This document shows, piece after piece, positions 15,209-31,657 of a stretch of 64,000 nt of DNA. The position numbers and the translations under genes were made by a program. Within the stretch, counting starts at the first letter, position 1; every line of letters starts with the position of its first letter. Source of the stretch: Bacteroidota bacterium (lineage in GTDB: Bacteria; Bacteroidota; Bacteroidia; Flavobacteriales; Schleiferiaceae); NCBI GenBank assembly GCA_024742495.1, contig JANSYJ010000002.1, positions 62,001-126,000 of the forward strand, given 5' to 3'. The notes under the pieces are model-generated. The model was not told where the DNA came from, ran no database searches, and worked only from the letters and a program-made list of their open reading frames with translations.

Positions 15209-15284
<76 letters not shown>

Positions 15285-15311: not shown

Positions 15312-15322
15312 CAATTCCCAAT

Positions 15323-15449: not shown

Positions 15450-15461
15450 GGTTTTGGTCAG

Positions 15462-15704
15462 ATGGAATATTTCGTTTACGTATTGAAAAGTGATTCTACG
15501 GCTGCCTTTTATAAAGGCATGACAAGTGATTTACAGAAAAGGTTGGAGCAACATAATGCGGGTAAGACTAAATCGACCAAGGGAAAAGGCCCTTGCCGGA
15601 TGGTTTACCAAGAATCCTTTGGGAATGCTGAAGAGGCACGTGCACGCGAAAAGTATTTTAAGACCGCGGCCGGTCGACGTTTTTTAAAAAGTTTAAATCT
15701 TTAA
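15462..15704 (+). CDS. small GIY-YIG nuclease family protein
   Basis: 80 aa. The GIY-YIG core is visible as YFVYVL (residues 3-8) and YKGMT (17-21), followed by the catalytic-type Arg27 and HNAG, then the EEARAREKYFK helix with the conserved Glu. The size matches the stand-alone UvrC-N-terminal-like (UPF0213) proteins of Bacteroidota. The ATG at 15462 is preferred because the open frame upstream runs back into tRNA-Leu. It is enclosed by direct repeats derived from the tRNA-Leu 3' end, which suggests insertion or local duplication. Its role is unknown; members of the class are housekeeping or mobile. Confidence 0.85.
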   Translation: MEYFVYVLKSDSTAAFYKGMTSDLQKRLEQHNAGKTKSTKGKGPCRMVYQESFGNAEEARAREKYFKTAAGRRFLKSLNL

Positions 15705-15730
15705 GTGAACGTCTGAAGCCATTCAGTGGG

Positions 15731-15790
15731 GCGGGAAGTCCCGCCTAGGGCACATTAAGAAAGGAGATGTTTTTCGAAGCGTCTCCTTTT
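15731..15790. repeat. direct repeat copy 2: displaced tRNA-Leu 3' fragment with terminator
   Basis: 59 of 60 positions match 15384-15446 after allowing for loss of three T-loop bases. It contains no other tRNA parts, so it is a remnant rather than a second tRNA gene. It provides a possible terminator for the GIY-YIG gene. Confidence 0.85.
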
Positions 15791-16038: not shown

Positions 16039-19000
16039 TTGACTTGTATCCGATCTATATACTTAGCACTGGTATTTTTACTTAGTCATCTTGCATTGGC
16101 TACAGAAAAACCGCAGATAGTATGGGATAGCTTAAAGGAGCCAATCGATTATACTTACGCCTATTTGAATGCGCAAAATGGCTTGCTGCAAAATGAGATT
16201 AAGGACATGTTCTATCATCCTAAATCGAAAGTTCTCTGGTTGGGAACGCAGCAAGGTTTAGTGCGCTACAGTGGTCGAAAAGTAGAGGTGCTTAGCCCGC
16301 GAAATAATGCCCATCTCTATAATGCGAGGATTCGCGATTTCTATTCTTATCGGGACTCAGCCTGGATCGTGTACGGCGATAATAATGCCTATTGTGAAGT
16401 TGCCGCAGACGGTATTCATCTGCAAGAGTCTAAGCTGATACGGGAAGAGATGCTCTTCTCAGATCGAGGGAACTTAATTCCTAGAACAGGATTTAAGCAC
16501 ATGAAATTCTATCAACTGGCCCTTTCGGAAAAGTGTAATTACACCTTTATGGGGAATCCCATGAAATTCACCTACACCTGTGAAAATGTCCACTATCCCT
16601 TTGATATTAATTTTGAGCCCTATTTTGAAAATCACAGCTTTGCTTTAGGAAACAAGGCATTTGCGATAAGCCAGAGCGGTCACCTATTGCAGTTTGAAGA
16701 GAATGAGGTGGATACCCTGGCCTTAATCCCAGCCTGGGCGCAAAGAGAAAATGATGGCGATGAGGCTCAGGTACTTTGGCGTGGTTTCTACAAAAAGGCC
16801 TATTTGATTGTTGATGGGAAGCTGTACCAATTCAGTTTAAATGCCAAGGGGCAGCTAAATTTGCGTCTGCTTGCTCAAAATTTACCTAAGCATGAATACA
16901 GTGCTTGCATCGAGCTCGAAGAGCAATCCAAAATATTCCTAGGAACACGCCGCAGCGGTTTATTGACATTAAGTCCAAAGATTATTCAACAAGTTTTTAA
17001 TGCTGATTATTGTAAAGGCACTTATAGCAATTATGCCATCGCCGAAATTGGAAGAGACTCGGTAATATCAGCCGACGGAGTAATTTTCACACCAAATGGA
17101 ATTGATTGCTCCAAGCGCTTCAACCGCAGTGAGTTTTGGTATCCCTTAGCCTTTGACCCCGAAACCAATAAGCTTTTCACTGCTCGATCCAGAGATGAAT
17201 ATGGTCACTTCAATTTAAAGGATTGGACTTATCATAAAGATAGTATTGATCTTAATGAAGGTCATTTCCCGGGACCAATGATCAGGCATAAGGGCAAGTT
17301 GTATTCCTATATTGAGCAATATGGCCTATGTGTTTATAACTCTGGGAGATGGGATTTGCTGGGCAAGAAATTAGCCACGGGCATTCCCATGCCTCGTCAA
17401 ATGGTATTCGAAAGTGACTCGATCATTTGGCTTAGTACCCGTTACGAGGCTATTCGACTTAATTATTATACCGGCCACTTAAAGGGGCTAAAAACGCCAT
17501 ATGCGGTAAGTGGTCGCGCCATTAGCAGAATAAAGGATCGCGTATGGTTTAGCATGTATGGCAGTGGGGTTTTTATTCAAAATGGCGATTCTACCCTGCA
17601 TTTTTTACCACCCGAATATCCGGAGCTGGAGGCTGTTCACGCTATTGTGAACTATGATGACAAGGTGCTTTTCTCTACCAATAATGGTTTGTTTGAATTT
17701 AAGCATAGGGATATACTGAAATATGTCTCCGGGGAGATGGAGTATATACAGGCTTATGGCTTTTCGGAAGAAGATGGATTATTACAAAGGGAATTTAATG
17801 GTGGATGTCAGCCCGCACATTTAATTCTAAAGAATGGCAAAATGGCCTTTCCCAATCTTACCGGTCTCAGTTTTTTAAGGGCCGATTTTCAAGACTATAA
17901 AAGGCCCATAAATCAACTACCTATTATTCATCAATCTTATTATGATGGAAGAGACTCGATACTAGACTTTAGTAAAGAAATTGACCCTGACTTTGCCAGC
18001 TTGGGATTTGATTTAATACAAAGCTATTTTGGAGATGAGGATAATGCCCGCGTTTATTACCGAATTCCGGAAATAAGCAGCGCATGGCGTTTGTTAAACT
18101 TCATTGAAGGTATTCGCCTAGATCGACTACCTAGTAATCAAACTTATACCTTAGAAGTGCTAATGCCCGGCTTAGAATCGGGACAACAAGTCCATCAGTT
18201 GCTGAATTTTAAAGTGGGTCCTCGCTTTGTTCAAACTCTTACTTTTTACTTGGCTCTATTGTTTTCGGCTTTAGCTCTTTTTACGATAGCCCTGTTGATT
18301 ATGCAACATCGTAATCGTCTTCAGAAAAGGCGATTGGGGAAGGTGATCGCTGAAAGAACCTCCGAACTAGCCAAGAATAATGTGAATTTGCTAAACACGG
18401 TCGAGCTGTTAGAAAACTCTAAGGAGGATTTACGATCGGCCCTGGAAATGCGGGAGAAAATGATTGCAGTATTTTCACATGATATCCGCGGACCTTTGCG
18501 ATTCCTCGCAGATATTGCTACTTCCATAAAACAAAAGAACCCTGATAAAACCATTATTAAGGAGTTGGAGGTTTTAGAGGACGGAGCGAAAAGTGCCTAT
18601 TATACTGCAGATGATGTCTTAAAGTGGATCAAGAGCAAGCGCAATACCGGCTCCGAAAATTGGCTTTCGCTCTTAGAAGCAATACAGGCGGTTGTTAAGC
18701 GAAAAAAGACCGAATTAGAGCGCTATAATATCGAGCTTTCTTTAAAATTAGATAGTGATGTATTGGTGAAAACAAATCCCAAAACATTGGAGATAATCAT
18801 CGAGAATCTGCTTCAGAATGCGATTAAATTTTGTCGAGGCCAAATTAGCATCCAAGTTGCAACTCAAAATGAAAGGGTGCTTCTAAATATTATTGATGAT
18901 GGTTTTGGTGTGATGGATCCCAATACCCTACGTAAATTAAATACCGGCGTGGCGGTGAAAAGTGCCAAGGGCCGCAGAGGAGATGCCGGGGCAGGCTTGG

Positions 19001-19119
19001 GTCTCCTAATGGTTAGCGAAATACTCAAGAATTTGGGAGCGAGAATTAGGTACCAAAATGTTCCTGATGGTTTTCTGGTTCAGCTTAGTTTCCCTAAAAC
19101 ACCCGGATCAATCGAATAG
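16039..19119 (+). CDS. two-component sensor histidine kinase with periplasmic Reg_prop-type propeller
   Basis: 1026 aa from a TTG start, chosen because the nearby ATG at 16025 runs into a stop. Signal peptide at residues 1-21. The long periplasmic part contains two-component regulator propeller repeats such as KVLWLGTQQGLVRYS, and a region before the membrane resembling a Y_Y_Y domain (SAWRLLNF...NQTYTLEVLMPG). One TM lies at about 729-757. A coiled segment is followed by HisKA with H814 in FSHDIRGPLR, the N-box ENLLQNAIKF and the G-box GDAGAGLGLL. No receiver or HTH is fused, so it differs from the hybrid HTCS regulators. It converges on a LuxR-type regulator 32 nt away, its likely partner. 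Confidence 0.9.
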   Translation: MTCIRSIYLALVFLLSHLALATEKPQIVWDSLKEPIDYTYAYLNAQNGLLQNEIKDMFYHPKSKVLWLGTQQGLVRYSGRKVEVLSPRNNAHLYNARIRDFYSYRDSAWIVYGDNNAYCEVAADGIHLQESKLIREEMLFSDRGNLIPRTGFKHMKFYQLALSEKCNYTFMGNPMKFTYTCENVHYPFDINFEPYFENHSFALGNKAFAISQSGHLLQFEENEVDTLALIPAWAQRENDGDEAQVLWRGFYKKAYLIVDGKLYQFSLNAKGQLNLRLLAQNLPKHEYSACIELEEQSKIFLGTRRSGLLTLSPKIIQQVFNADYCKGTYSNYAIAEIGRDSVISADGVIFTPNGIDCSKRFNRSEFWYPLAFDPETNKLFTARSRDEYGHFNLKDWTYHKDSIDLNEGHFPGPMIRHKGKLYSYIEQYGLCVYNSGRWDLLGKKLATGIPMPRQMVFESDSIIWLSTRYEAIRLNYYTGHLKGLKTPYAVSGRAISRIKDRVWFSMYGSGVFIQNGDSTLHFLPPEYPELEAVHAIVNYDDKVLFSTNNGLFEFKHRDILKYVSGEMEYIQAYGFSEEDGLLQREFNGGCQPAHLILKNGKMAFPNLTGLSFLRADFQDYKRPINQLPIIHQSYYDGRDSILDFSKEIDPDFASLGFDLIQSYFGDEDNARVYYRIPEISSAWRLLNFIEGIRLDRLPSNQTYTLEVLMPGLESGQQVHQLLNFKVGPRFVQTLTFYLALLFSALALFTIALLIMQHRNRLQKRRLGKVIAERTSELAKNNVNLLNTVELLENSKEDLRSALEMREKMIAVFSHDIRGPLRFLADIATSIKQKNPDKTIIKELEVLEDGAKSAYYTADDVLKWIKSKRNTGSENWLSLLEAIQAVVKRKKTELERYNIELSLKLDSDVLVKTNPKTLEIIIENLLQNAIKFCRGQISIQVATQNERVLLNIIDDGFGVMDPNTLRKLNTGVAVKSAKGRRGDAGAGLGLLMVSEILKNLGARIRYQNVPDGFLVQLSFPKTPGSIE

Positions 19120-19151
19120 ATAGGCTATGATCTTTTTTACAATAGGGCTCA

Positions 19152-19805
19152 TTAAGGGAATATTAATCCCTCTTTAAGGGCCCATTTGTATAAATCGAAA
19201 TTACTGCTCACCCCAATTTTCTGAAAAACGCGCGAACGATAGGTGGCTATCGAGCTTTTATGCAAACCCAAAATATCACTGATTTCCTGGGTGTTCTTGC
19301 CTTTTACCATCAAGGATAGGATTTCAGATTCGCGATCTGAAAGTTTATGTACAGAATGCTCCTCGGCCGGTTGACCATTATCGCCAATGGCCTCCATGAG
19401 CACATCACTGGAAAAATAACCGCGACCATTAAGTATGCTTCGAATGGCAAAAAGTAATTCCTCATCAGGGGCAGTCTTATCTACAAAGCCACTTACCCCT
19501 AGCTCTATTAGTCGTTTAACATACAATTTGGGTGGTTCCATCGAGAACATTAATACAGACGTTTCGGGCACATAATGCCGCACCTTTTTTACCAAGGATA
19601 TTATTTCATAATCCGGTAAGTTGATGTCCATTATTATTAAGTCGTAATGTGACTTCTTTTTGGCGGCAAGCTGACAATAATGCACAGCCTCTCTACCAGT
19701 GCCTGCTATATCATGTTCCTTGAATAGCTTGTTGTTTTCAATAAAAAATTTCATACCTATCTGAACAACAGGATGGTCATCAATTAATAGTAGTCGGCTC
19801 ATCAT
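19152..19805 (-). CDS. LuxR/NarL-family response regulator 1
   Basis: 217 aa. Receiver domain with the acidic pair D9-D10, phosphoacceptor D60 in IIMDINLPD and the conserved Lys in FVDKTA. The C-terminal LuxR-type HTH (about 150-215) has LSDRESEILSLMVKGKNTQEIS and SSIATYRSRVFQKIGV. It lies tail to tail with the sensor kinase and head to head with the first giant kelch gene across 479 nt. It shares long identical blocks (FSMEPPKLYVKRLI, KTAPDEELLFAI) with the regulator at 30369-31019, so the two are close paralogs. A palindrome lies 60 nt upstream of its start. Confidence 0.93.
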   Translation of the reverse strand: MMSRLLLIDDHPVVQIGMKFFIENNKLFKEHDIAGTGREAVHYCQLAAKKKSHYDLIIMDINLPDYEIISLVKKVRHYVPETSVLMFSMEPPKLYVKRLIELGVSGFVDKTAPDEELLFAIRSILNGRGYFSSDVLMEAIGDNGQPAEEHSVHKLSDRESEILSLMVKGKNTQEISDILGLHKSSIATYRSRVFQKIGVSSNFDLYKWALKEGLIFP

Positions 19806-19864
19806 CTATTTTTTTGCAAGGACGGAAAGCCAATTATTTAATGATTTAAAATATTTGCCAAATA

Positions 19865-19886
19865 AGTGTAGAAAATGGACTACACT
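19865..19886. promoter_or_regulatory. palindrome upstream of response regulator 1
   Basis: A perfect inverted repeat AGTGTAG-N8-CTACACT lies 60 nt upstream of the regulator start. Its core TGTAGA (19867-19872) matches the half-site repeated upstream of the kelch genes. It is a plausible autoregulatory operator; no binding is shown. Confidence 0.5.
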
Positions 19887-20001
19887 AAAAGCGCATTGAA
19901 GGCTTAAGGACCTCAATATTCTGTTGGCATTTTTTCTCCTTTAAGTTGAATTTTTAAGTCCGTCCTTTTTTGGGAGTTGATGACATAGCCCTCGCAATTG
20001 T

Positions 20002-20048
20002 TCTACAAGAATCCCTAGAGTTCTACAAAAACTAAGTTTTATTCTACA
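20002..20048. promoter_or_regulatory. TCTACA repeat array upstream of giant kelch gene 1
   Basis: Direct repeats of TCTACA begin at 20002, 20022 and 20043. Each is preceded by T, and the first two are followed by A. The spacings of 20 and 21 bp put all three on one face of the helix. It is a candidate binding array for the LuxR-type regulators. Confidence 0.55.
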
Positions 20049-20284
20049 GTTCTCGATTTTTAGAAATGGGATGTTTGTTCTGTTGAAATATGCCTAGGCG
20101 AAAGCTTTGTAAATAAGGGTGTTGGTTTTCTGAAGACTTAATATGAATTATAAGAAAATATAGCATCTAGGTCAGGGAATCTATACTCTAAAGCTATAAA
20201 CCCTTATCCTCAGCCATTGCAAGCATTGTTTTGAAGGCATCTCTCAACGCTATTTAGGAAAATCCAATTCAAAATTAGAGGCTC

Positions 20285-23200
20285 ATGTCGAAATCTACTT
20301 TTTACTTTCTGATCATCGCGTTTTTAAGCCTTTCTTTTTGCCGTGCACAACAGCTAAGAGGGGTACGCTTGTCCGCAGAAGGCGATCAAAGTGGCTTGCC
20401 CATTTACGGGGTCAAAGGCGAGGGATATCGCAGCCATCCCGAAGGTTTAGCCGATCAATGTTTATGGCATACGGGCGATACCATTTATATGTTCGGTGGT
20501 AGGACTAATGTTCAAGGGGTTGCACTATCTAACCGTGTGAATAATCGATTATGGCGCTACAGCCCCAATGGCAATTGGGAATTAATTGGGGGCGATTCTA
20601 TAAGCTTGGGAAATTCTAATCCTTTGGATTCCTTCACGGTACGTTACGGAACTGTCGGGCAGGCCTCCGAGGGTAATCAACCGGGGCCTAGGATGGGGGC
20701 TTCCTATTTTACTGGCATAGATGGGCGCTTTTACATGTATGGCGGCTACGGACTGGCAACAGATACCATAGGAACTTTAGGTGATTTATGGTCTTATTCC
20801 AATGGTCTTTGGACTTTTTTAGCGGGTGATAGTATAGCAAATCCTCAAGCATTTCATGTCAATCAAGGTCCCTCATTGGCTTTTGCAAAACCAGGCGCTC
20901 GTTTTCAAAGTGCATGCTGGATGGATGATCAAGAGGATATCTGGCTCTTTGCCGGTTCTAAATATGATTATAATTCTATCGATAGTAATTATCAAGATTT
21001 ATGGAAATGGGACGGGCTAACTTGGTCTTGGCAAGGGGGAGACTCCTTGTTGAATCAAGGTAGCGAGGTGCTTAATCAAGACACAATTTGGCCAGCATCT
21101 AGGCACGGTGCGGCAAGCACTTATTTCAATGGTAACTTGTATTTAATTGGTGGTTTTGGAAGTGAGAATCGTCCGGATAATGATTTTCTACAAAACCTTT
21201 GGTCCTGGGATGGCGCGGCCTGGACAATACTCTCCAATTGTTCTGGTTCCTCCTCTCCAGCGCCCAGCGCTAATGCCTTTCTAACGGTTATTAATAATCA
21301 GCTAACGCTAATTGGAATAAGCACCGCCAATATCTTTTTGGCGGGCATTCCAGGCCTAAAGTATAATGGCTCCCAAGCGATTTATAAATATTTAGGCAAT
21401 GGGGCTTGGTCCGAAGATTTTATCGGTCTCAGTAATGGCTTTCAGCAAAGAGGACCTCTAGGTCTGTATCATCCAGAACTTAGTCCCTTCTTTTCAAGTT
21501 CCAATATGGCATGTGTAAATACCGGCTCTGAGCTTTATCTATACGGCGGGCAATTAGACCAAGACTACACCCAAGTTCAAAGTGATTTCTATAAATACAA
21601 TGGTAGTAATTGGGCCTTTCTATCGGGAGCGGGAATTCAAGATTCATTTCAAAATGCATCTGGCCCTTTTGCTCAGCCCGGCGAGCGTTACCTGGCAACG
21701 GGTTTTTTCGACAAACAAAATTCCAAGTTCTATTATTTCGGAGGTAAGGGAAAGGATGTTAATGGTCGGGTAGGTAATTTAAATGATCTGTGGCTATATG
21801 ATCGTGGTGCTTGGAAATGGCTTTCGGGTTCTCAAGAACGAAACCCAAGGGCACGATATGGTATCAAATACCAAAGTGATTCTGGTTCCACCCCCGGGGG
21901 GCGCCAAAGTGCAGCATCATGGCTTGATGGCAATGGGGATTTTTGGTTAATGGGAGGGAGGGGATATGACTATGATGGCAATTATGGTTACCTCAATGAT
22001 TTATGGAAATTTGATGGTGTATTTTGGACCTGGATGTCAGGTGATTCCATTGTGGATCAAAGTGGTGTTTATGGGCTTTTAAATATTGCTGATTCTGCTA
22101 ATAGTCCAAGAGCTCGTGATGGCCATCACATCTGGTTAAAGCCCAATGGCGATTTAATTCTATTTGGCGGTCAAGGCCTCTATAATGGGAGCACCCGCCG
22201 ATTTAATGATTTATGGAAATGGGATGGGAGCACTTGGACCTGGATTGGAGGTAGCTCAAGTGGTGATCCAAGTAGCGTTTATACCGGAGTAAATGCTATA
22301 CCAGGTGGCCGATCTTATGCCGCAATAAGCGCCTATGATGATGGTTTTTATTTATTCGGAGGCATCGGTCGAAATCAAGCTAATCTATATTCTTATCTCG
22401 ATGAGCTTTGGCATTTTGACGGCAGTGAATGGGAATTGCTGGATGGTCGGATTGGAGAGCGCTATCCAAAGCCATTGGCGGCTAAGGCTAGCGATAATGC
22501 CGACTCTGTGCAACCAGGTGGGGTATATGGTGCGCATCTTTGGAAGCTAGATTCTAGCCTCTATCTTTTTGGAGGGCGGGCGCATTATGCCGATGAAGGT
22601 AAATCCTTTGCAAGTAACACCCTCTGGCATTGGGATGGGGAGAATTGGGCCTTTTTAAAGGGAGATACCACTTCAGTTGACAGTCTGCATAAAACTATTG
22701 GGCCAAATATTGATGGCGAATTTTCTTTTAATAGCCTTGCTTCAGGAAGGTATCAAGGAATATGCTGGCAAGAGCTGGATGGCTTGCACTTAATTGGAGG
22801 TTATGGCATTGGCGATGATGGAGCGCTTGGTCCCTACTTATCGGATCATTGGACCTTAGATCAAGGAAACCTCTGGGATGGTCATTCATGGTCGCTGGGA
22901 ACTTCGAATTCTAAAGCGCAAAATGCCCAAATATCTGGAACCATATCTCCGGGAAATCTTCAGGCCAAAGATTTATTTATTGATGCCGATTGCACTATGG
23001 ATTTCACGGGTGATAGCCTGCGGATTAGTGGCGACCTCTATTTGCAACACAATATACTCGGTAGACCTTTGGTGGAATTTAATGGACTTGCTTATCAGGA
23101 AATCCTCGGTGAAGATTCCTTATATGTCCTTGGGATAGTTAAGCTTGATTCACTTGCGACTTTAAAGGCTAATGAAAGGTTGTGCATTGGCGCCCAAAAT

Positions 23201-24607
23201 GATAGCATCCACGGCCAGCTTTTTAACCATGGTGAAATTGAAGGCCTTGTTGAATTTGAGTATTACCTCAATTTGGATAGCTCAGCGAATAATGGGCGCT
23301 ACTTTCATATCGGCAATGTGCTTGATAGTGTTAGCATCTTAGATTTCAATCAAGGCGGTATAATGAATACGGGAAACGATAATTCCGGTGTTAACACTGT
23401 TTGGCAATGGGATGCCACTAATTCAAATTGGTTTTCCCCTTCTAATAGACTATTAGCCCCGGGAACGGGATTGGCGATTTATGCTGGCGCTAATGCAAGT
23501 GGCAACTTTATTTTTAATGATAATCAATCGCGGCGATTAGTAGTGCGAGCCAAGGTGCCAAAGCTGGCTCCAGTTCAACTTAATTTAGATTACCATAATG
23601 GACAAGGGAGCGGACTAAGCTTTAACGGAGGAAACAGTAGCCAGCAAACCGAGGGATGGAATTTAATTAGTAATCCCTTTCCACATGACTTGGATTTAGA
23701 GCCAATTTTAACCCAGCTCAATAACAGCGCCCTTTATATGTGGAATGGGGAATCCTATGCTGCATGGGCCGGTGTTTCAATTAATGGAGGTTCATCTGTT
23801 TTGGCTCCAGGACAAGGCTTTTATATTCAATTGGATGATGGGCAATCGAGTTTGTCATCCTTAAATATAAGCAGTTCCCCAGCGGGAATGGGCGCTTCGC
23901 AAAGACATAAAACCGAAAGCGCCAAGGAGGGGTTGCTCCTGAGTTTAAAGCAGGGATCTCGAAATTTAGATCAGCTTTGGTGTGGAATTGATAGGAAGGC
24001 AACAGCCGGTTTTGATGGGAAACTCGATGCCTGGCAAATGAATTACAATCAGGCTCAATTTGCCGCTCAGCTTGATAGCGGGCAATGTACAATCGCTCAT
24101 TACCACCCCGATTCTATTGACATTATTCCCTTATCTCTTTTGGCAAGAAGCTATCAGGGACAAGATCTAGAGATAGTGCTAGAGCGAATTAATCTAGCGG
24201 CTAGCATCGAGGTTTTCCTTGTAGATCGCTTAAGGGACCAAGAACTAAAGATTAGTGCTGGTATGCGCTATTCCTTTAGGCATGATAGCTTGTGGAGCCA
24301 GCGTTTCCTGCTCCGCTTTCAAAAAGGGGGAGCCTTAGAGGAAAAGGAGGAGTCCAATTTTCATCAGGCCTTTGTTTACCAGGAGGGCAGCTCTTGTTTT
24401 TTAGACTTAAAGGCTTTTAACGATCGCGAACTAAACCTTAGACTGTTTAATAGCTCAGGTGCTTTGGTGGAAGAGTACCTAAAAGTTACAGCCCGTCATA
24501 GAATTGAAATTCTGAGAGAGAGTCCATCGGCTTGCTATTTCCTCCACATAAGTGATGCCCAATCGAGCTCAAGCCTCATTGAGAGTATGAGTTTATATAA
24601 ACCTTGA
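20285..24607 (+). CDS. giant secreted kelch-repeat protein with T9SS-type C-terminus (paralog 1)
   Basis: 1440 aa. Signal peptide at residues 1-22. Residues 30 to about 855 are a long series of kelch/galactose-oxidase-like repeats of roughly 70-80 residues. Each has a YMFGG/YLFGG/WLMGG strand, an NDLWKWDG strand and a SWxWxxGG strand with a PGxR spacer. At about 861 an LWDGHSW element starts a non-kelch stalk; GWNLISNPFPH lies at about 1122. The last 75 residues (AFVYQEGSSCFLDLKAF... to SMSLYKP) look like a T9SS sorting domain, so surface export is inferred. Preceded by a TCTACA array. A paralog of the same architecture lies at 25885-30255. Ligand unknown. Confidence 0.88.
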   Translation: MSKSTFYFLIIAFLSLSFCRAQQLRGVRLSAEGDQSGLPIYGVKGEGYRSHPEGLADQCLWHTGDTIYMFGGRTNVQGVALSNRVNNRLWRYSPNGNWELIGGDSISLGNSNPLDSFTVRYGTVGQASEGNQPGPRMGASYFTGIDGRFYMYGGYGLATDTIGTLGDLWSYSNGLWTFLAGDSIANPQAFHVNQGPSLAFAKPGARFQSACWMDDQEDIWLFAGSKYDYNSIDSNYQDLWKWDGLTWSWQGGDSLLNQGSEVLNQDTIWPASRHGAASTYFNGNLYLIGGFGSENRPDNDFLQNLWSWDGAAWTILSNCSGSSSPAPSANAFLTVINNQLTLIGISTANIFLAGIPGLKYNGSQAIYKYLGNGAWSEDFIGLSNGFQQRGPLGLYHPELSPFFSSSNMACVNTGSELYLYGGQLDQDYTQVQSDFYKYNGSNWAFLSGAGIQDSFQNASGPFAQPGERYLATGFFDKQNSKFYYFGGKGKDVNGRVGNLNDLWLYDRGAWKWLSGSQERNPRARYGIKYQSDSGSTPGGRQSAASWLDGNGDFWLMGGRGYDYDGNYGYLNDLWKFDGVFWTWMSGDSIVDQSGVYGLLNIADSANSPRARDGHHIWLKPNGDLILFGGQGLYNGSTRRFNDLWKWDGSTWTWIGGSSSGDPSSVYTGVNAIPGGRSYAAISAYDDGFYLFGGIGRNQANLYSYLDELWHFDGSEWELLDGRIGERYPKPLAAKASDNADSVQPGGVYGAHLWKLDSSLYLFGGRAHYADEGKSFASNTLWHWDGENWAFLKGDTTSVDSLHKTIGPNIDGEFSFNSLASGRYQGICWQELDGLHLIGGYGIGDDGALGPYLSDHWTLDQGNLWDGHSWSLGTSNSKAQNAQISGTISPGNLQAKDLFIDADCTMDFTGDSLRISGDLYLQHNILGRPLVEFNGLAYQEILGEDSLYVLGIVKLDSLATLKANERLCIGAQNDSIHGQLFNHGEIEGLVEFEYYLNLDSSANNGRYFHIGNVLDSVSILDFNQGGIMNTGNDNSGVNTVWQWDATNSNWFSPSNRLLAPGTGLAIYAGANASGNFIFNDNQSRRLVVRAKVPKLAPVQLNLDYHNGQGSGLSFNGGNSSQQTEGWNLISNPFPHDLDLEPILTQLNNSALYMWNGESYAAWAGVSINGGSSVLAPGQGFYIQLDDGQSSLSSLNISSSPAGMGASQRHKTESAKEGLLLSLKQGSRNLDQLWCGIDRKATAGFDGKLDAWQMNYNQAQFAAQLDSGQCTIAHYHPDSIDIIPLSLLARSYQGQDLEIVLERINLAASIEVFLVDRLRDQELKISAGMRYSFRHDSLWSQRFLLRFQKGGALEEKEESNFHQAFVYQEGSSCFLDLKAFNDRELNLRLFNSSGALVEEYLKVTARHRIEILRESPSACYFLHISDAQSSSSLIESMSLYKP

Positions 24608-24701
24608 TAGAATTTAGGAGCTAGTCGGATGTCTTGCTAATTCCTGCTGAAACAGTGAGAAGATAGCTTTTAAGCGGTGCTCTGCCTTATTACTTCTGGT
24701 T

Positions 24702-24792
24702 TGTAGAACAGGGCTTACAAAACGCCCTAAATATCTCCTTCAAATTCTACAAAACTGTAGATAGTTCTACAAAAGAATAAAATTTATCTACA
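24702..24792. promoter_or_regulatory. phased TCTACA/TGTAGA array upstream of the receiver-kelch 2 operon
   Basis: Half-sites are TGTAGA at 24702, TCTACA at 24746, TGTAGA at 24756, TCTACA at 24766 and TCTACA at 24787. The middle three form two overlapping palindromes with 4-bp spacers (TCTACA-N4-TGTAGA-N4-TCTACA). All steps are near multiples of one helical turn (44, 10, 10, 21). This resembles a cooperative operator ending about 41 nt before the receiver ATG. Confidence 0.6.
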
Positions 24793-24833
24793 AATTAAAA
24801 TCAATTATTAATTGACATTTGAAAAGTCTAAAA

Positions 24834-25220
24834 ATGATAGAAGTGAAAGTTTTAATACTAGAGGATAATAAGTTTATACTTTCAATTATCCAAGCCGCAA
24901 TAAAGGAATTTAATGTAGAGGTTCAGGTTGCAACAAATGTTTCGGAGGCCTTAAGTCTTTATGCTGATTTTCAACCCGACTTAATCATGTCGGATCTGCA
25001 CATGGAGTCAGGTACAAGTGTAAGTTTCCTGGAGGAGGTTTCCAAGTCTAAATCACATCATGTCTTGGTAGTAAGTTCAGATTTTGAACTCTTGTCAGAG
25101 GTGGAGGAGAAATTAGGTGGTGAAAAATGGCGCTATGTTAATAAGAATAATAGGCGTTGGTTAATGCAGGTAAAGAAAGAATTAAAGTCTTCTATAGTGC
25201 TTCAGGGGGAAATGTATTAA
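24834..25220 (+). CDS. stand-alone response-regulator receiver protein
   Basis: 128 aa, receiver domain only, without an output domain. Acidic pair E10-D11, phosphoacceptor D54 in LIMSDLHMESG, Ser-rich strand VLVVSSDF and Lys in YVNKNN (K104). The ATG at 24834 is preferred over an in-frame TTG at 24819 because it starts directly before the first receiver strand (VKVLILED). It heads a compact group with two small membrane-associated proteins and the second giant kelch gene. It could act as a phosphate sink or as a protein-protein switch for the neighbouring kinase. Confidence 0.88.
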   Translation: MIEVKVLILEDNKFILSIIQAAIKEFNVEVQVATNVSEALSLYADFQPDLIMSDLHMESGTSVSFLEEVSKSKSHHVLVVSSDFELLSEVEEKLGGEKWRYVNKNNRRWLMQVKKELKSSIVLQGEMY

Positions 25221-25231
25221 GTGTTATTAAT

Positions 25232-25435
25232 ATGTATAAAATGACTAAAAAATATATTGTGTTGCTGTTTGTCTTGTGGTTGAATGTCGATTTAGCGGCA
25301 CAGCCCCAATCGGGAGGCGGTAATTCAAATCCAACTCCCATCGGTTTTACCGAGGTATTGCTTCTTGGCGGTGCTGTTGTGGGGGCTCAAAAAATCAGGA
25401 ATCGTAAAAAACAGAATGATGCTAATTTATCGTAA
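25232..25435 (+). CDS. small secreted protein with PID-CTERM-like sorting tail
   Basis: 67 aa (ATG at 25232, alternative ATG at 25241). An N-terminal signal peptide (KKYIVLLFVLWLNVDLAAQ) is followed by a Gly/Asn/Pro-rich linker and a C-terminal tripartite tail: TPIG, hydrophobic TEVLLLGGAVVGA, and basic KIRNRKKQ. This order matches the PID-CTERM type of small Bacteroidota proteins, although the canonical PIDGG is here PIGF, so the assignment is tentative. It sits 11 nt after the receiver gene and overlaps the next gene by 20 nt. Too short to carry an enzymatic function. Confidence 0.7.
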   Translation: MYKMTKKYIVLLFVLWLNVDLAAQPQSGGGNSNPTPIGFTEVLLLGGAVVGAQKIRNRKKQNDANLS

Positions 25436-25805
25436 CACCAGCGGAGTGCTAAGGGCTCTGCTAACCGAACTTTTTATTATTTCCTTAGGCACCTTATTAT
25501 GCCTGTTAGTTCTAATGCAGTTAGAAATACATATTCTCTGGGTTATTCTTCCCGCTTCATTACTAATTATGGCTTCAGTGTGGAAAAGCGTCTATCAGAG
25601 TTCCAATGCTTCTTTGATAGAGATGGGTGGTGTGGTTTGGTATAACAATGGCCTTCAACGCAAATGCCTCGGGCAAAGAGGGTCTTTGCATATTAAAAAG
25701 TCTTGGCTACTGCCTTATAGCGCCTATTGGTTAATTGGTGATGAGGCTTCCATTCTTATGATAAAATCAGATTATCCAGTTCTCAATATCGAAGGTGAGC
25801 TTTAA
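25416..25805 (+). CDS. small two-TM membrane protein of unknown function
   Basis: 129 aa from ATG 25416 (or 25419), overlapping the previous gene by 20 nt. Two adjacent hydrophobic helices, about residues 12-31 (LTELFIISLGTLLCLLVLMQ) and 35-50 (ILWVILPASLLIMASV), are followed by a soluble beta-rich tail of about 75 residues. I do not recognise a family. Tight packing between the PID-CTERM-like gene and giant kelch gene 2 suggests a role in display or regulation of those proteins, but this is inference only. Confidence 0.7.
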   Translation: MMLIYRNTSGVLRALLTELFIISLGTLLCLLVLMQLEIHILWVILPASLLIMASVWKSVYQSSNASLIEMGGVVWYNNGLQRKCLGQRGSLHIKKSWLLPYSAYWLIGDEASILMIKSDYPVLNIEGEL

Positions 25806-25884
25806 GAGCTGGCTGCTTTTGGATCAATCAGTCCAGAGTAGAAGTACCTATAAAAAATCAAAGCAATTATTTAACAGTTTCAAA

Positions 25885-28800
25885 ATGAAATTAAGACTAC
25901 TTATTTTTCTCTTTGCTTGGCTATGCTTAAGCTTGGAAGGACAACATTTAAGTACCGCATATATAAATGGTTCACTATCAGGTAGCGTAAATGGGATTTA
26001 CGGAACTCAAGGTGTGAATTCTAATAGTAAGCCTGAGGCATTAGGATCTGCCTGCATGTGGTCCGATGGAACCGCTATTTATCTCTTCGGTGGGGAAGTT
26101 AATGCTAGTTCTTTAGGTGATTCACTCATTATAAATAACCGGCTCTGGCAATGGACAGAGGCGAATTCCTGGTCTTTAGTTTCAGGAGACCTTGGAAATG
26201 TGCGAATAAACAACACTAACCAAAATGGGGTAAACCTTGGTACGGTAAATTACGGTACTAAGGGTGTGGCTTCCGCTTCCAATCAGCCTGGCGCAAGAGC
26301 GGGTGCGGCCTATGCCACTGGGAATAATGGAGAGTTTTACATGTATGGTGGCTATGGTGTTGCTAGTGATGGATTGGGGGCCCTTTCGGATTTGTGGAAA
26401 TATGAGAACGGTCTTTGGACCTGGATTGGGGGTTCAAACTTAAAGGATGTAGCCGCCACTTACGGAACCTTATTGGCAAGTGGAGGCAGTGAGCCCGGCG
26501 CAAGGGTAGATGCCAATCTCTGGGTAGATGCATCGGATGATGTCTTCATTTTTGGCGGCGGTACCGGCTTTTATGGTCAGTATCATGATAATTATGCCAG
26601 TTTGATGCGCTTTAATGGTACTGACTGGTCTTGGCGGATCGGTTCGAGTGCATTAAACGCGGGTCCGGTTCAAGCCTCAGGTAGCACGACTTATATTGAG
26701 CCGGCTGCAAGACGAGCCGCGGCTGGAGTATATACAGATGGTAAATTTTACTTGAAGGGAGGATCTGTTGATCAAAATCCTGGCGAGTACCGAGAGCAAT
26801 CCGATTATTGGTCCTATGATGGACAGAGCTGGACTTTAATTGTGGGTGACCCGGGTACCGATGAGTCGGAGAATGAAACTGGCTCTGGTGCTTTTTGCGG
26901 CGCCGTATTGCTTAGTTTGAATGAAGAGATATATCATAAGGGGGGCTTGTTTAGAGGCGAGTTTGTTTCTTTGAGCCTTTTATCCATTTTTAAATGGCAA
27001 GACACCATTTTTAACACATTGGGATTGTCATCATCTTTGGAGTCAAATCCAGGGATATATCAGTCGGCGCATCCGAGTCTAAATAATAATATCTTTTCAT
27101 ATATTTCAAATCGACCTGCTGTCGCCATTCATAAAAATGAGGCCTATTTTTATGGAACCCAAGGTCACGCTGCGGGCTCATCAGATTTATTTGCAAAATT
27201 TAACGGTGAAGCCTGGGCTTATATCGGTGGAGGGGAATCACCCGAAACTTATATTTCGGGTACTCAAACCAAACCCGGAGCAAGAGCGGAAGCAGCTTAT
27301 ATCTATGATGAGGACGCCGAGAAACTATATCTCTTTGGTGGTAATGCTTTTCCCGAATCTGGATATCGCGGCCGCAGTAATGACTTTTGGCAATACAGCA
27401 ATGGGCAATGGGTGTGGTTAAGCGGTTCCAAAACCTCAGGCTCCAGCTCAGTATATGGCACCTATCAAGTGCCGGCAGCAGCCAATACCCCGGGAGCAAG
27501 AATTAATGCTCAAATGTGGATCGATGGCTCTGGCGATGTTTGGCTTTTTGGGGGCTATGGAAAGGATGAAAATGGTGATCTAGGTTATTTAAATGACCTC
27601 TGGAAATACAGCAATGGGCAATGGTCCTGGGAAAGGGGATCTAAACTAAGGAATCAACAGCCGGTCTCCGGAGCCTTTGGGGTGGCTGACGCCAGCTATA
27701 CCCCTGGTGCAAAAGTTCAGGCGGTAACTTGGCGGGATGCTAATAACGATCTCTATCTTTTTGGGGGATTAGGTACTACTTCTACTGGAAGTACCGCCCG
27801 GACCAATGGTTTATGGAAATGGGATGGTTCTAATTGGTCTATGGAAGCAGGATCAACTACTGCTAATGGCGCCGGAAGCTATGGTACCAAGGGCGTGTCG
27901 GCTCCCTCCAATTACCCCAGTGCCCGCAGTGCTTGTAGCTTTTGGGGTGATGACGATGTTCTTTACTTATATGGCGGACAGGGTATTTCTTCAATAGGAG
28001 CCTTTGGTTACCTCGATCAGTTATGGAAGTATGATAGAGCCAGCGGTGAATGGACTTGGTTAAGCGGAACAGGTGGCTCCCTTTCGGTGTCAGCTGCCTA
28101 TGGGGAATCTACCGACAATACAGCTTCCGTAAATCCTGGGAACCTGCGTTCAGCGATATTGTGGTCAAATAATGGTACAGATCTTTTTCTTTTTGGAGGA
28201 ATTCGCCTGAGTCCAAACCTGGCAAATACTTTTGTTCCTACCAATAACTTATGGCATTGGGATGGCTCCCATTGGGCCTGGCTTAAGGGTGACCAGAATT
28301 CGAGCTATAGCAATATGACGGCCGAAATCAACGCTGATGGTGAATTCACTTATTCTAATCTTCCTTCAGCGCGTGCCTCCGCAGTGGCGTGGTCCAGTGA
28401 TAATGGCTTTTACTTATGGGGAGGTTTAGGTGTAAACAGCAATGGAACGAGCAATATTAGCTTTAACGACTTCTGGATAATGGAGGAAGGAAATGCTTGG
28501 GATGGAAGCGATTGGACCAAAGGCAAGCCATCAGTAGGAGTGAGTGATGTCCTTATTCGATCAAATACAACGCCATCGGCGGCACTTAGCACTAAAGATC
28601 TAATTGTAGACGCTAACTTCAGCTTTGACCTCGATAGTCACGATTTGGAAATAACCGGTGATATTTACAATTATGGCGATTGGATTGATATGGCTACCAT
28701 TACTCTCAACGGGGAGAGTGATCAATACCTAAATGGTAGCCGTTGGGATATGGATGGGCTTTTATTAGTGAACTCCAATAGCACCTTTCATACGAACGAT

Positions 28801-30255
28801 TCTTTGAGAATTAAGGCGAATTCCACTACCGATTTTGGACAGCTTTACAGTGCTGGACAAGTATCCGGAAGTTTGGAATTCCAATATTACCTTGACTTAC
28901 AATCCTTCACTCATAATGGTCGATTCTTTCAAATGGGCTCCACCCTGGATGGCGTGGAGATTGGTGATTTTGCCCAGGGAGGAATCCTAAATACCGGTAA
29001 CGCAAACTCGGCTGTAAATACTGTTTGGTATTGGAAAGCGAATGATTCAGAATGGCGATCACCAGCTGCAGGCTTGACAAGCGAAGGGCGGGGTTATTCC
29101 TTTTACGCCGGTCATAATAGTTCGGGCAACTTTTTATTTCAGGATGGAACCCAGCCAGGGGTAGTGACTATCAGAGGAACTTACCGAGCGAGTAGTTTTG
29201 GGTCTTATAGTTTAGATTATGACGACGGTCAAAGTTCCAGTGTTACTTTTAATGGAGGCACTCATCAAGACCAAACCCAAGGCTGGAATTTATTGTGCAA
29301 CCCATTTACCTATAGCGTTACAATTGAAAACATGCTTAATTCTTCTTCCGTAAATGACGCTATCTATTATTACCATGCTGCCTCTCCGCTGATTACCCAT
29401 TATGCCTCTTATGTGAATGGCGTAGGCGCAAATGGAGGCTCTGCGGTGATTGCTCCAGGTCAGGCCTTCTATGTACAGTGTACAACCGGTCCCTTGGGTT
29501 TTGCAGCTGGTACATCACCGGCATATTCATCAAATACGGAAAGATTCAAAAGATCAGACAAAGACTTATTAAGACTTAAGCTTCTGCATAGTTCTATGGA
29601 AGATGAGGTGGTGGTCTCCTTTGATTTCAGAGCAAGCAAGGCTTTTGATTCTCAATTTGATGCTTGGAATTTAAGTTCGCCCTCCACTCCGATAGATTTA
29701 GCTATTGTTTCTAGAGGCGATGTGGAGTTTGCAATTGGAGGTTTTAGTCCCGATTCCATTGATGAAATATTCTTAAGTCCAAAAATGAATGTGGCTGGAG
29801 ATGACAGTTTGGTTTTAAGCGCAGATGCCAGCCAATTAAGCGCCTTTAATCAGGTTTACCTCTTCGATCATAAGCTAGATATAATCCACGATTTAAATTT
29901 AAATCCCAATTATCATTTTAAGAACGATAGCAGCTTTCAGGAAAAACGTTTTCAATTGTTTTTCGGTCACAATTCTGGATTAGGTATTGCCGCCAAAGAG
30001 CTAAATAAATTGCCTTTATATGCCTATCAAAATGAAGCTGGGAACTTTTTAAGGTGGATTAATAAGCGACCCTCGGGAAAGGTGAAGCTGAAAGTATTTG
30101 CGGCCAATGGTGTCCTAATTGAAGACTTAGACTGGCTTGAAGAGGAAAGAGAGCGGTCTATTTTAAGAACAGCCAAGACTGGTATTTACATAATTCAACT
30201 CATCGATGCCCAAGGTGAAATATATTCCCTTAAGGTTTTGAAAAAGCCACAATAA
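25885..30255 (+). CDS. giant secreted kelch-repeat protein with T9SS-type C-terminus (paralog 2)
   Basis: 1456 aa from ATG 25885, which starts the signal peptide MKLRLLIFLFAWLCLSLEGQ; the frame is open from a GTG at 25795, but that would bury the signal sequence. Kelch repeats (YLFGGE, YMYGGYG, VWLFGGYGKD, DLYLFGGLG with NDLWKYSNG) occupy residues 50 to about 865. NAWDGSDWTKGKP is at about 869 and GWNLLCNPFTY at about 1131, almost the same positions as in paralog 1. The C-terminus (residues about 1375-1456, ending SLKVLKKPQ) resembles a T9SS sorting domain. It is the last gene of its operon and is followed by a strong terminator. The ligand or enzymatic activity is unknown. Confidence 0.88.
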   Translation: MKLRLLIFLFAWLCLSLEGQHLSTAYINGSLSGSVNGIYGTQGVNSNSKPEALGSACMWSDGTAIYLFGGEVNASSLGDSLIINNRLWQWTEANSWSLVSGDLGNVRINNTNQNGVNLGTVNYGTKGVASASNQPGARAGAAYATGNNGEFYMYGGYGVASDGLGALSDLWKYENGLWTWIGGSNLKDVAATYGTLLASGGSEPGARVDANLWVDASDDVFIFGGGTGFYGQYHDNYASLMRFNGTDWSWRIGSSALNAGPVQASGSTTYIEPAARRAAAGVYTDGKFYLKGGSVDQNPGEYREQSDYWSYDGQSWTLIVGDPGTDESENETGSGAFCGAVLLSLNEEIYHKGGLFRGEFVSLSLLSIFKWQDTIFNTLGLSSSLESNPGIYQSAHPSLNNNIFSYISNRPAVAIHKNEAYFYGTQGHAAGSSDLFAKFNGEAWAYIGGGESPETYISGTQTKPGARAEAAYIYDEDAEKLYLFGGNAFPESGYRGRSNDFWQYSNGQWVWLSGSKTSGSSSVYGTYQVPAAANTPGARINAQMWIDGSGDVWLFGGYGKDENGDLGYLNDLWKYSNGQWSWERGSKLRNQQPVSGAFGVADASYTPGAKVQAVTWRDANNDLYLFGGLGTTSTGSTARTNGLWKWDGSNWSMEAGSTTANGAGSYGTKGVSAPSNYPSARSACSFWGDDDVLYLYGGQGISSIGAFGYLDQLWKYDRASGEWTWLSGTGGSLSVSAAYGESTDNTASVNPGNLRSAILWSNNGTDLFLFGGIRLSPNLANTFVPTNNLWHWDGSHWAWLKGDQNSSYSNMTAEINADGEFTYSNLPSARASAVAWSSDNGFYLWGGLGVNSNGTSNISFNDFWIMEEGNAWDGSDWTKGKPSVGVSDVLIRSNTTPSAALSTKDLIVDANFSFDLDSHDLEITGDIYNYGDWIDMATITLNGESDQYLNGSRWDMDGLLLVNSNSTFHTNDSLRIKANSTTDFGQLYSAGQVSGSLEFQYYLDLQSFTHNGRFFQMGSTLDGVEIGDFAQGGILNTGNANSAVNTVWYWKANDSEWRSPAAGLTSEGRGYSFYAGHNSSGNFLFQDGTQPGVVTIRGTYRASSFGSYSLDYDDGQSSSVTFNGGTHQDQTQGWNLLCNPFTYSVTIENMLNSSSVNDAIYYYHAASPLITHYASYVNGVGANGGSAVIAPGQAFYVQCTTGPLGFAAGTSPAYSSNTERFKRSDKDLLRLKLLHSSMEDEVVVSFDFRASKAFDSQFDAWNLSSPSTPIDLAIVSRGDVEFAIGGFSPDSIDEIFLSPKMNVAGDDSLVLSADASQLSAFNQVYLFDHKLDIIHDLNLNPNYHFKNDSSFQEKRFQLFFGHNSGLGIAAKELNKLPLYAYQNEAGNFLRWINKRPSGKVKLKVFAANGVLIEDLDWLEEERERSILRTAKTGIYIIQLIDAQGEIYSLKVLKKPQ

Positions 30256-30340
30256 GATTGCAATCGGTTTTTATTAGAAAGAATACGGTGCTCTCAGGCC
30301 ATTAGTTCCTTCCCAAATCTTCTGAAACTGAGTCACTGTT

Positions 30341-30371
30341 CCGGCCCGCTATATGTGGGCCGGTTTTTTTA
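30341..30371 (+). terminator. intrinsic terminator after giant kelch gene 2
   Basis: A perfect 7-bp stem CCGGCCC/GGGCCGG with a 9-nt loop is followed by seven T residues. It overlaps the last codon region of the convergent regulator. Confidence 0.9.
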
Positions 30372-31019
30372 GGGATGAATGAGGCCTTCTTTTAAGGCCC
30401 ACTGGTACAGTTCAAAATTTGAATTGACTCCAAGCTTGTCAAAAATGCGGGTTCGGTATGTGGCCACCGAACTCTTGTGCAGGCTTAGGAGCTCGCAAAT
30501 CTCTTTGGGAGATTTCCCACGAATCATAAGTGATAGGATTTCTGATTCACGGTCGGATAATTCATTAGCTACGGCGCTAATTTCATCGTCGGCATTATTT
30601 ACTATATCCGTCATTATCTCGCTGGAAAAATAGGTCTTCCCTGCCTTAACATTCTTAATGGCAAATAGCAACTCCTCGTCGGGAGCGGTTTTGTTTAAGA
30701 ATCCCTTTATGCCCATATTAATAAGACGCTTGACATAAAGCTTTGGTGGCTCCATCGAAAACATGATGATGGGCGTGTTCGGGCTGTTGTCCATAATGAA
30801 TTTCACTAGGGCAATGGCCTCATAATCCGGTAGGTTTATGTCCACTATTGCCATTTCATAAAAGCCCGGCTCTGCTCGATGCTCCTTTATAAATTGGACG
30901 GCTTCTTTCCCGGTGCCGGCAACATCAGTATGTTCAAAGAGTTTGTATCGATCTACAAAGGAGCGCATTCCCATTTGCACTACTGGATGATCATCGACGA
31001 TTAAAATATTACTTCCCAT
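30369..31019 (-). CDS. LuxR/NarL-family response regulator 2
   Basis: 216 aa, paralog of the regulator at 19152-19805. Acidic pair D9-D10, phosphoacceptor D60 in IVDINLPD, Lys in FLNKTA, and a LuxR-type HTH with LSDRESEILSLMIRGKSPKEIC and SSVATYRTRIFDKLGV. The HTH recognition region is nearly the same in both paralogs (HKSSxATYRxRxF), so they may bind the same DNA motif. No kinase is adjacent, so it is an orphan that could share the kinase at 16039-19119. It converges on giant kelch gene 2. No TCTACA element is seen in its own upstream region. Confidence 0.93.
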   Translation of the reverse strand: MGSNILIVDDHPVVQMGMRSFVDRYKLFEHTDVAGTGKEAVQFIKEHRAEPGFYEMAIVDINLPDYEAIALVKFIMDNSPNTPIIMFSMEPPKLYVKRLINMGIKGFLNKTAPDEELLFAIKNVKAGKTYFSSEIMTDIVNNADDEISAVANELSDRESEILSLMIRGKSPKEICELLSLHKSSVATYRTRIFDKLGVNSNFELYQWALKEGLIHP

Positions 31020-31099: not shown

Positions 31100-31657
31100 T
31101 TAATTTTTAATTTCGGCTGAAGCCTTAAAAAGGAGATCCATTTTTTGGTCGTGAGCCTCCCTTGGCAGTTCATCAAGAACCATAAAGGGATAGGCTAAGG
31201 CAAGTTTAATAGCTTGAGGATGCTTAGCTAAAAACCGATCATAGTAGCCTCCGCCATAACCTAATCGCTCACCTTTACTATTAAAACCTAAACCTGGACA
31301 AAGTATTAGTTTGGGCTCAAGGGTGGAGGCTTCATCATGCCTGGCTTCCATTATGCCCCAGCTATTTAATGCGAGATCGTCCATGCTTCTAACCTCAATT
31401 TGTATTAACTGGCGTTTCGGTGCCATTTTGGGTAGTATTAAAGGACGATTTGTTTTCCAGCAGAATTCTAGAATTGGCTTTATGTCTATTTCATGCGGCA
31501 TGGGGAAGTAGGCATGTAAGTGCCTTACTTCCTGCTTTTTCAGGTAATCGATTACCAAAGTGCACAATTCCTTATCCCAGGCTTTTTTCTGCTCGGCAGG
31601 TATGGACTTCAATTTTTTTAGAAGTATTGAGCGTAACTCTTTTTTCGACTTATTCAT
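31100..31657 (-). CDS. 5-formyltetrahydrofolate cyclo-ligase
   Basis: 185 aa. ATP-dependent conversion of 5-formyl-THF to 5,10-methenyl-THF. Motifs include the N-terminal KKELRSILLKKLKSIP basic helix, HAYFPMPHEIDIKPI, and the C-terminal ATP-binding FNSKGERLGYGGGYYDRFLA signature. Start overlaps the Kdo-transferase stop by 8 nt, so the two are co-transcribed. The 77-nt gap before regulator 2 lacks recognisable signals. Confidence 0.93.
   Translation of the reverse strand: MNKSKKELRSILLKKLKSIPAEQKKAWDKELCTLVIDYLKKQEVRHLHAYFPMPHEIDIKPILEFCWKTNRPLILPKMAPKRQLIQIEVRSMDDLALNSWGIMEARHDEASTLEPKLILCPGLGFNSKGERLGYGGGYYDRFLAKHPQAIKLALAYPFMVLDELPREAHDQKMDLLFKASAEIKN

Follow-up and report, generated by a model that had tools for sequence, protein, structure and literature searches.

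A candidate two-component-controlled type IX surface-protein block with a PID-CTERM-type peptide in a tRNA-adjacent slot of a Schleiferiaceae bacterium

Introduction

The locus described here joins genes for two giant kelch proteins, a PID-CTERM-type mini-protein and a set of two-component proteins, and its closest known relatives belong to systems that have been described separately. RemZ of Flavobacterium johnsoniae is a Type A substrate of the type IX secretion system (T9SS) and has been found bound in the SprA pore (PMC10994853). The exosortase XrtF matters for surface colonisation by F. johnsoniae, and that report names its substrates as future work (PMC10936215). The PID-CTERM/XrtX families (NF046080-NF046082) are characterized by a signal-like start, a Pro stretch, a short motif, a hydrophobic segment and a basic tail. 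The NarL-type regulator GacA recognizes the site TGTAAG-N6-CTTACA (PMC4950607). The locus lies at positions 16039-31019 of a 64,000-nucleotide stretch (the window; contig JANSYJ010000002.1, positions 62,001 to 126,000) from the genome of a Bacteroidota bacterium of the family Schleiferiaceae (assembly GCA_024742495.1).

Each of these systems has features in common with the block and also differs from it. The giants share about 320 C-terminal profile positions with RemZ, but their N-terminal part is a kelch array and they are encoded together with a PID peptide and regulators. As in F. johnsoniae, the genome encodes XrtF and its associated membrane protein. The window peptide has the same anatomy as the curated PID-CTERM families, but it carries PTPIGF, escapes the model, and belongs to a genome whose exosortases score as XrtF and XrtK. 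The two regulators, RR1 and RR2, have the domain order of GacA/UvrY-type proteins, which are among their best family matches, yet they stay under the GacA/UvrY and MctR cut-offs and form a paralogous pair accompanied by lone receivers. The palindrome TGTAG-N8-CTACA, which is the candidate operator of the block, and the GacA box are both 18-bp TGTA...TACA palindromes that differ in their G/C positions. Searching the open-licence literature in PMC, we found no paper that uses the term PID-CTERM or deals with PID peptides or with the pairing of PIDs and T9SS giants.

The reading that we favour, with moderate confidence, is that the block, housed in a tRNA-adjacent accessory slot, is a type IX surface-protein module which a two-component system controls and which includes an exosortase-type partner peptide. 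The evidence comes from the giants and their association with PID-type peptides, from a DNA element concentrated in the slots, and from the recurrence of the gene set in the genus.

Results

Kelch giants and the operon between them

From left to right, the block contains a GIY-YIG gene, a sensor kinase, RR1, KEL1, the lone receiver REC, the PID peptide, the small membrane protein TM2, KEL2 and RR2. The kinase, regulators, kelch proteins, receiver, peptide and membrane protein had all been called in an initial annotation made from the letters alone, and all are genuine genes at the coordinates given here. KEL1 (20285-24607, plus strand; Pfam kelch families) encodes a 1440-aa kelch protein with a RemZ-like C-terminal module recognized by the module profile, and KEL2 (25885-30255, plus strand; Pfam kelch) encodes its 1456-aa paralogue, or 1486 aa if translation starts at an upstream GTG (start 25795 in the open reading frame [ORF] list). 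Both genes are intact and their products are 35% identical nearly end to end, as expected of the paralogues originally proposed. An alignment of the C-terminal module from KEL1, KEL2 and relatives (A6) matches RemZ (8gl8_D, 6.5e-21, profile positions 184-500). The NCBIfam model Por_Secre_tail reaches 21.3 bits against KEL2, just below its cut-off of 23, and gives no match to KEL1. Read by eye, ...CRAQQ (KEL1) and ...LEGQH (KEL2) are candidate ends of a Sec signal peptide followed by Gln. The RemZ-like C-terminus supports the prediction that both giants are type IX cargo.

Surface proteins next to a kinase with a large periplasmic sensor recall glycan-uptake loci of the SusC/D type with a hybrid two-component sensor. 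Such an identity was already disfavoured by the initial annotation and we judge it very improbable: Pfam matches of the eight block proteins, the part of the window that was scanned for these families, include no SusC/D or glycoside hydrolase family, the kinase has no detected receiver or helix-turn-helix (HTH) domain, and the regulators are separate NarL-type proteins.

Three small genes on the plus strand separate the giants. REC (24819-25220; Pfam Response_reg 8.4e-11) is the first gene of the operon, the PID-type gene (25241-25435, with an alternative ATG at 25232) encodes 64 aa, and TM2 (25419-25805; homologue search and hydropathy) overlaps the end of the PID gene and is followed in the same direction by KEL2 after 79 bp. 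This trio had been predicted correctly apart from the two membrane segments assigned to TM2, for which a simple hydropathy scan finds a single strong one. TM2 was also tested as a relative of the XrtF/XrtX-associated membrane proteins, without support. From its signal-peptide-like start, which ends in AQP, the window peptide continues through a Pro-containing stretch and PTPIGF to one hydrophobic segment and a basic tail; anatomy and BLAST tie it to its homologues. Its designation as PID-CTERM-like holds for its anatomy and not for the curated PID_CTERM model NF046080 (cut-off 26 bits), which leaves it unmatched and gives 44.3 bits to another copy in the genome.

PID-type peptides mostly follow RemZ-like giants

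PID-type peptides occur in 38 of 99 relatives, with up to 8 per genome (eight-row profile), and in at least 130 of 395 class genomes at 1e-6 (37-row profile; the best 16 candidates per genome were scored, so that class counts are lower bounds). Since profile A4 includes the window peptide, its own match arises by construction, and the same applies to A7 and to the loci contained in A2, A3, A5 and A6.

Neighbours were counted at 87 loci with 97 PIDs. A gene for a protein with the RemZ-like module ends no more than 250 bp upstream on the same strand at 61 of the 97 and no more than 60 bp upstream at 54, and PIDs with an upstream module gene rise to 69 with filters off. A module gene starts within 250 bp downstream of only 8 PIDs, 3 of which also have an upstream one, and none of the 97 has a module gene on the opposite strand within 250 bp. 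Because the upstream arrangement prevails 61 to 8, the odds of the favoured reading are left unchanged. Among 954 other genes, just 1 stands so close (60 bp) behind a module gene. In a comparison free of locus choice, based on whole-genome matches in 18 genomes, an upstream module match on the same strand ends no more than 700 bp from 57 of 75 PIDs (no more than 200 bp from 50), and 56 of 103 module proteins are followed by a PID. The window's own genome has three PIDs, each at a module locus (L029, L217 and the window, where REC separates KEL1 from the PID), and four module proteins, each at a PID locus. At the class level a module gene lies directly upstream at 17 of 29 loci outside the window, with flanks of 1.5 kb only, so that giants in front would escape notice. 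A giant with a PID-type peptide is therefore a more general unit than a regulator with a giant.

The second PID locus of the genome, L029 (G000:C30:238001-258000), encodes a 1639-aa module giant with a 60-aa PID-CTERM peptide 9 bp behind it, and this set faces a LytS/LytTR two-component pair; a similar set is present in G003 (L193). Elsewhere, PID genes form arrays, five of them in G033 and four in G019, over some 22-31 kb (L144-L146, L150-L151). Nearly every one stands behind a module giant, and the arrays look like serial duplications.

Exosortases often accompany PID-type peptides

Exosortases and the peptides tend to co-occur across genomes. Matches to the XrtX model of at least 95 bits are found in 34 of the 38 relatives with a PID and in 9 of the 61 without one; 15 more of the latter have weaker matches, and no relative passes the XrtX cut-off itself. 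G020 has no exosortase by PF09721, which reflects a limit of sensitivity, since the XrtX model finds one. Physical linkage is occasional: an XrtF/XrtX-like gene lies one or two genes downstream of the PID at 4 of 29 class-level loci, and of these four genes two pass the XrtX cut-off, one falls 1.5 bits short and the fourth is a weak match. XrtX lies one or two genes behind the PID at L307 and L315; in L307 it scores 170.4 bits (cut-off 170) and, together with a weak XrtX-associated match (43.5 bits, cut-off 75), stands beside a PID and a giant. The window's own genome encodes XrtF (129 bits, cut-off 90), the membrane protein associated with it (46.6, cut-off 35) and XrtK (L241, G000:C30:107001-119000; 128 bits, cut-off 55), with both exosortases on a contig other than that of the window peptide.

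A palindromic element concentrated in the slots

RR1 (19152-19805, minus strand) and KEL1 are divergent, head to head and 479 bp apart, and the region between them contains an exact copy of TGTAG-N8-CTACA at 19867-19884, the candidate operator recorded by the palindrome scan. The element was first spotted by eye in upstream regions, and every 5-mer inverted repeat with a spacer of 0-20 was therefore ranked in 57,830 bp of slot DNA. This 18-bp palindrome ranks first, with 7 copies in 4 genomes, all 7 of them intergenic, against 5 for the next best. In the seven genus genomes, 7 of the 16 exact copies sit in slots, which make up 0.24% of the DNA. Besides the window copy, the element stands before the kinase (with a small ORF between), before a giant and before REC/RR1 in G002, before a giant and before the PID in G005, and before the PID in G001; the PID-upstream palindromes of G001 and G005 are probably the same ancestral site. 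One-mismatch forms precede REC in the window (TGTAGAACAGGGCTTACA, 24702-24719, upstream of the receiver operon) and in G003. An exact, fully symmetric palindrome, TGTAGCACTAGTGCTACA, lies at 1463 in L025 of G022, which belongs to another genus, in the gap that separates a lone receiver gene from its neighbour.

The same two intergenic regions of the window, before KEL1 and before REC, each contain three TCTACA words with spacings of 20 and 21 bp (20002-20048 and 24746-24792, both plus strand). According to a genome pattern scan, the exact triple occurs at these two places in the 3.6-Mb genome and nowhere else; the reversed control occurs 0 times in this genome and once in G005. A further word, GTTCTACA, first noticed in the window, was counted in slot intergenic DNA (G000 4, G001 3, G002 3, G005 4, G003 0) and in the other intergenic DNA examined (G000 1, G001 0, G002 0, G005 0, G003 1). 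Another operator guess, TCTACAAA-N5-TAGA, did no better than chance (12 matches against 8.1 expected). By the palindrome ranking and the triplet scan, the shared DNA motifs that the initial annotation pointed to exceed chance.

The gene set recurs, rearranged, in one slot of the genus

The regulator profile A2 (E<=1e-40) was run on 99 genomes including the window's own and matches 8 of them, namely 5 of the 7 genus genomes, with two genes each, and G022, G024 and G041 in the family, giving 16 genes in total. In the genus the slot adjoins a tRNA-Gly/tRNA-Leu pair, also present in L018, L020, L021, L032 and the empty-slot locus L357, and an RR2 orthologue (69-80% identity) adjoins the same right-flank gene in G001, G002, G003 and G005 (L018-L021). 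A search for the same neighbourhood thus recovers the set in five of the seven genus genomes, reshuffled in each, which upholds the notion of a self-contained regulated surface-protein module. The G002 slot holds a kinase, two giants, RR1, REC, PID, TM2, REC and RR2; that of G003 holds a kinase, REC, PID, TM2 and RR2, with a second regulator gene elsewhere (L022); and in G001 and G005 the genes are divided between this slot and a second slot past a porin-like gene. The G004 slot is empty, with mutS, both tRNAs and the cyclo-ligase gene in place and 363 bp between the two protein genes. The flank genes of G006 are split between two contigs, and its cyclo-ligase gene has different neighbours.

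These patterns bear on a rival explanation, in which the slot is a tRNA-side hotspot for independently acquired surface and signalling genes that share no function, so that neighbours are passengers. It would account for the reshuffled content, for the empty slot of G004, for kelch giants and regulators each found alone, for two-component genes not being enriched near PIDs overall, and for the kinase and giants being less conserved than the mutS and sugar genes (about 30-48% against about 75-94% identity to relatives), although the two nearest right-flank genes have also diverged (about 40-56%). The passengers, however, would hardly be expected to carry, in four genomes, the same operator before a gene for a kinase, a giant, a PID or REC, or to share a TCTACA triplet confined to the upstream regions of KEL1 and the REC operon. 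The order REC-PID-TM2 is also kept in the window, L019 and L021, and PID-TM2 in L018 and L030. Of the 59 genomes searched for TM2, only the slot-bearing five of the genus gave a match. The regulator-less G004 and G006 lack it, and it was not found in any of the 54 others searched, including G022 and G024 with their more distant regulators (G041 was outside this search). We therefore regard a mere hotspot as unlikely, and retain the favoured reading of a regulated type IX module.

The left border of the slot is formed by tRNA-Gly and tRNA-Leu (15209-15409, plus strand; ARAGORN, Rfam), and the right border by a 5-formyltetrahydrofolate cyclo-ligase gene (31100-31657; NCBIfam). The block is not distinct by GC content (0.427, compared with 0.416 and 0.415). 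A 55-nt direct repeat (98%) within 15392-15790 is a copy of the tRNA-Leu 3' end and terminator, and the GIY-YIG nuclease gene (15426-15704; PF01541 1e-12) between the repeat copies resembles a tiny cassette inserted at a tRNA end. The adjoining sugar genes were considered as T9SS linking-sugar (Wbp) genes; NCBIfam places them closest to generic types (aminotransferase, nucleotide-sugar dehydrogenase, GalE, dTDP-glucose dehydratase), and the reading is therefore not claimed. In G005, a protein of nearly identical repeats (WG-type by eye; L020 18709-19500) is encoded right behind the kelch giant.

Kinase, regulators and lone receiver

The sensor histidine kinase (16039-19119, plus strand; 1026 aa; Pfam HATPase_c 8.9e-12) has a hydrophobic N-terminus that reads by eye as a signal peptide, one transmembrane segment at about 736-754 and, by hydropathy and motifs, a core with H, N and G boxes. 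Its sensor region of about 700 aa has no Pfam match in the stretch tested, matches to solved structures in the PDB are confined to the kinase core, and no receiver or HTH domain was found by Pfam at E up to 0.1, so that it differs from the hybrid sensors of polysaccharide-utilization loci. RR1, with a receiver and a LuxR/GerE HTH domain, is NarL/UvrY-like (Response_reg 1.4e-16, GerE 6.1e-15). RR2 (30369-31019, minus strand; Pfam and alignment to RR1) is a LuxR/NarL-type regulator 56% identical to it, and both pass the two Pfam cut-offs for receiver and GerE HTH. The best curated relatives of RR1 are MctR (129 bits) and UvrY/SirA/GacA (122 bits; NCBIfam), both below cut-off, and with 122 and 116 bits against a cut-off of 280 the two regulators fall outside the GacA/UvrY equivalog. 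In REC, the acidic pocket, phospho-Asp and Lys are in place when read by eye, and REC homologues are present in L018-L021 and L025.

Kinase and RR1 are tail to tail, as first described. RR2 had been given a mirrored orientation; both regulators lie on the minus strand, and the claimed mirror symmetry is therefore wrong, with RR1 head to head with KEL1 and RR2 tail to tail with KEL2. The flanks retrieved with the 16 regulator genes contain a kinase homologue in 14 cases and none at L022 and L024. At L025 (G022:C62), one of these regulators has a kinase-like gene of 281 aa and two lone receivers as neighbours. At the class level, the regulator profile A3 matches at least 44 of 395 genomes at <=1e-40 (the best 7 candidates per genome were scored, and counts are lower bounds). 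The best outside match has 167 bits compared with 364 and 353 for the window's own regulators, so that none of the matches listed from the other 394 class genomes is of this close regulator type. A contig scan with the regulator alignment gave, among the matches listed, only generic relatives of 28-36% identity and was not used.

Two-component genes next to PIDs raise the alternative that the peptide is itself a signal: an exosortase would free a pyroglutamyl, proline-containing PID fragment, which the periplasmic region of the kinase would sense, feeding back on the surface proteins. The PID anatomy suits such a product. Of the 97 aligned peptides, 95% have Gln in the first column past the predicted cleavage site, as expected from the Bacteroidetes Q-rule (PMC5837995), and the Pro-containing stretch is followed by PxP(I/F/L)(D)G and the hydrophobic segment. 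PID genes also lie less than 1 kb from a kinase gene in L018, L021, L023, L026 and L030, and those of L029 and L193 adjoin LytS/LytTR pairs. Against it, the PIDs of L019 and of the window have no kinase gene closer than 2.5 kb, the usual PID partners are giants and not kinases, and two-component genes within 2.5 kb are no commoner near PIDs than near background genes (11 of 97 against 38 of 414). We consider peptide signalling improbable. The same counts led us to drop the broader proposal that two-component systems usually accompany PIDs; the two-component link is specific to this locus type.

Discussion

In the favoured reading, the block is a type IX surface-protein module under two-component control with an exosortase-type partner peptide, and its parts would act in sequence. 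The kinase would read a signal from the envelope or the outside through its large periplasmic region and phosphorylate RR1 and RR2, with REC competing as a phosphate sink or relay. RR1 and RR2 would then bind TGTAG-N8-CTACA, and perhaps the TCTACA triplets, and thereby switch on KEL1 and REC-PID-TM2(-KEL2). The giants would leave via Sec and then the T9SS, in keeping with their RemZ-like C-terminus. The PID mini-protein would enter the inner membrane, have its N-terminal Gln cyclised in line with the Q-rule, and then be cut by an XrtF/XrtX-type exosortase, to judge from its signal anatomy, the co-occurrence of peptide and enzyme and their occasional linkage. From gene pairing, the product may help to process, anchor or escort the adjacent giant. 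Gene order, the element and its concentration in slots, the homology of the module, and the PID/giant pairing are direct observations.

A number of observations weigh against this reading. On the regulatory side, the palindrome shows no excess genome-wide in the seven genus genomes (16 sites against 19 for the reversed control), the TCTACA triple is absent from nine other genomes scanned, neither RR2 nor the kinase gene of the window is preceded by an exact operator, and the G003 slot has only the one-mismatch palindrome and lacks GTTCTACA. Eight of the 16 regulator genes lack a module giant in the sequence retrieved on their flanks. In G001 and G003, four kelch giants (1460-1494 aa; L242-L245) have no such regulator or PID nearby, although a weakly similar kinase gene lies about 3.6 kb from those of L243 and L245. 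Regulators are thus not obligatory for kelch giants in general. On the peptide side, two-component genes are not enriched near PIDs, 47 of the 103 module proteins in the 18 genomes have no PID within 700 bp downstream, default scoring finds no module gene in the 700 bp upstream of 30 of the 97 PIDs (a few of them at contig ends), and the genus-slot PID is not directly behind a giant. PIDs without an exosortase match occur in G021, G044, G048 and G083. Conversely, all four relatives of family f3 have an exosortase but gave no PID match by the eight-row profile, and one of this group, G061, yields one match (2.3e-8) with the 37-row profile; because these four genomes have an XrtF/XrtX-like gene, PID is unlikely to be the sole type of XrtF substrate. 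Finally, synteny and co-occurrence among relatives reflect phylogeny in part, G001 and G005 being closely related. Taken together, the genes and motifs of the initial annotation and its self-contained regulated module stand, whereas the mirrored second regulator, the symmetry and an obligate linkage of giants with regulator and kinase do not.

The question of exosortase substrates in Bacteroidota gains concrete candidate substrates and partners in the pairs of PIDs and RemZ-like giants, single or arrayed. The pairing ties this question to type IX secretion and suggests that two separately known protein-sorting pathways cooperate. As a more specific and tentative proposal, which we hold to be possible rather than probable, PID-CTERM mini-proteins, once processed by an exosortase of the XrtX/XrtF kind, may act in trans as partners in the sorting or anchoring of RemZ-like type IX giants, with the processed product modifying, anchoring or escorting the neighbouring giant. 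The locus is a compact regulon with a predicted operator, and its signalling half is therefore testable with two promoters. If PIDs do act as partners in trans, type IX export and exosortase sorting would form one coupled surface-display pathway, placed at this locus under a NarL-type switch of its own.

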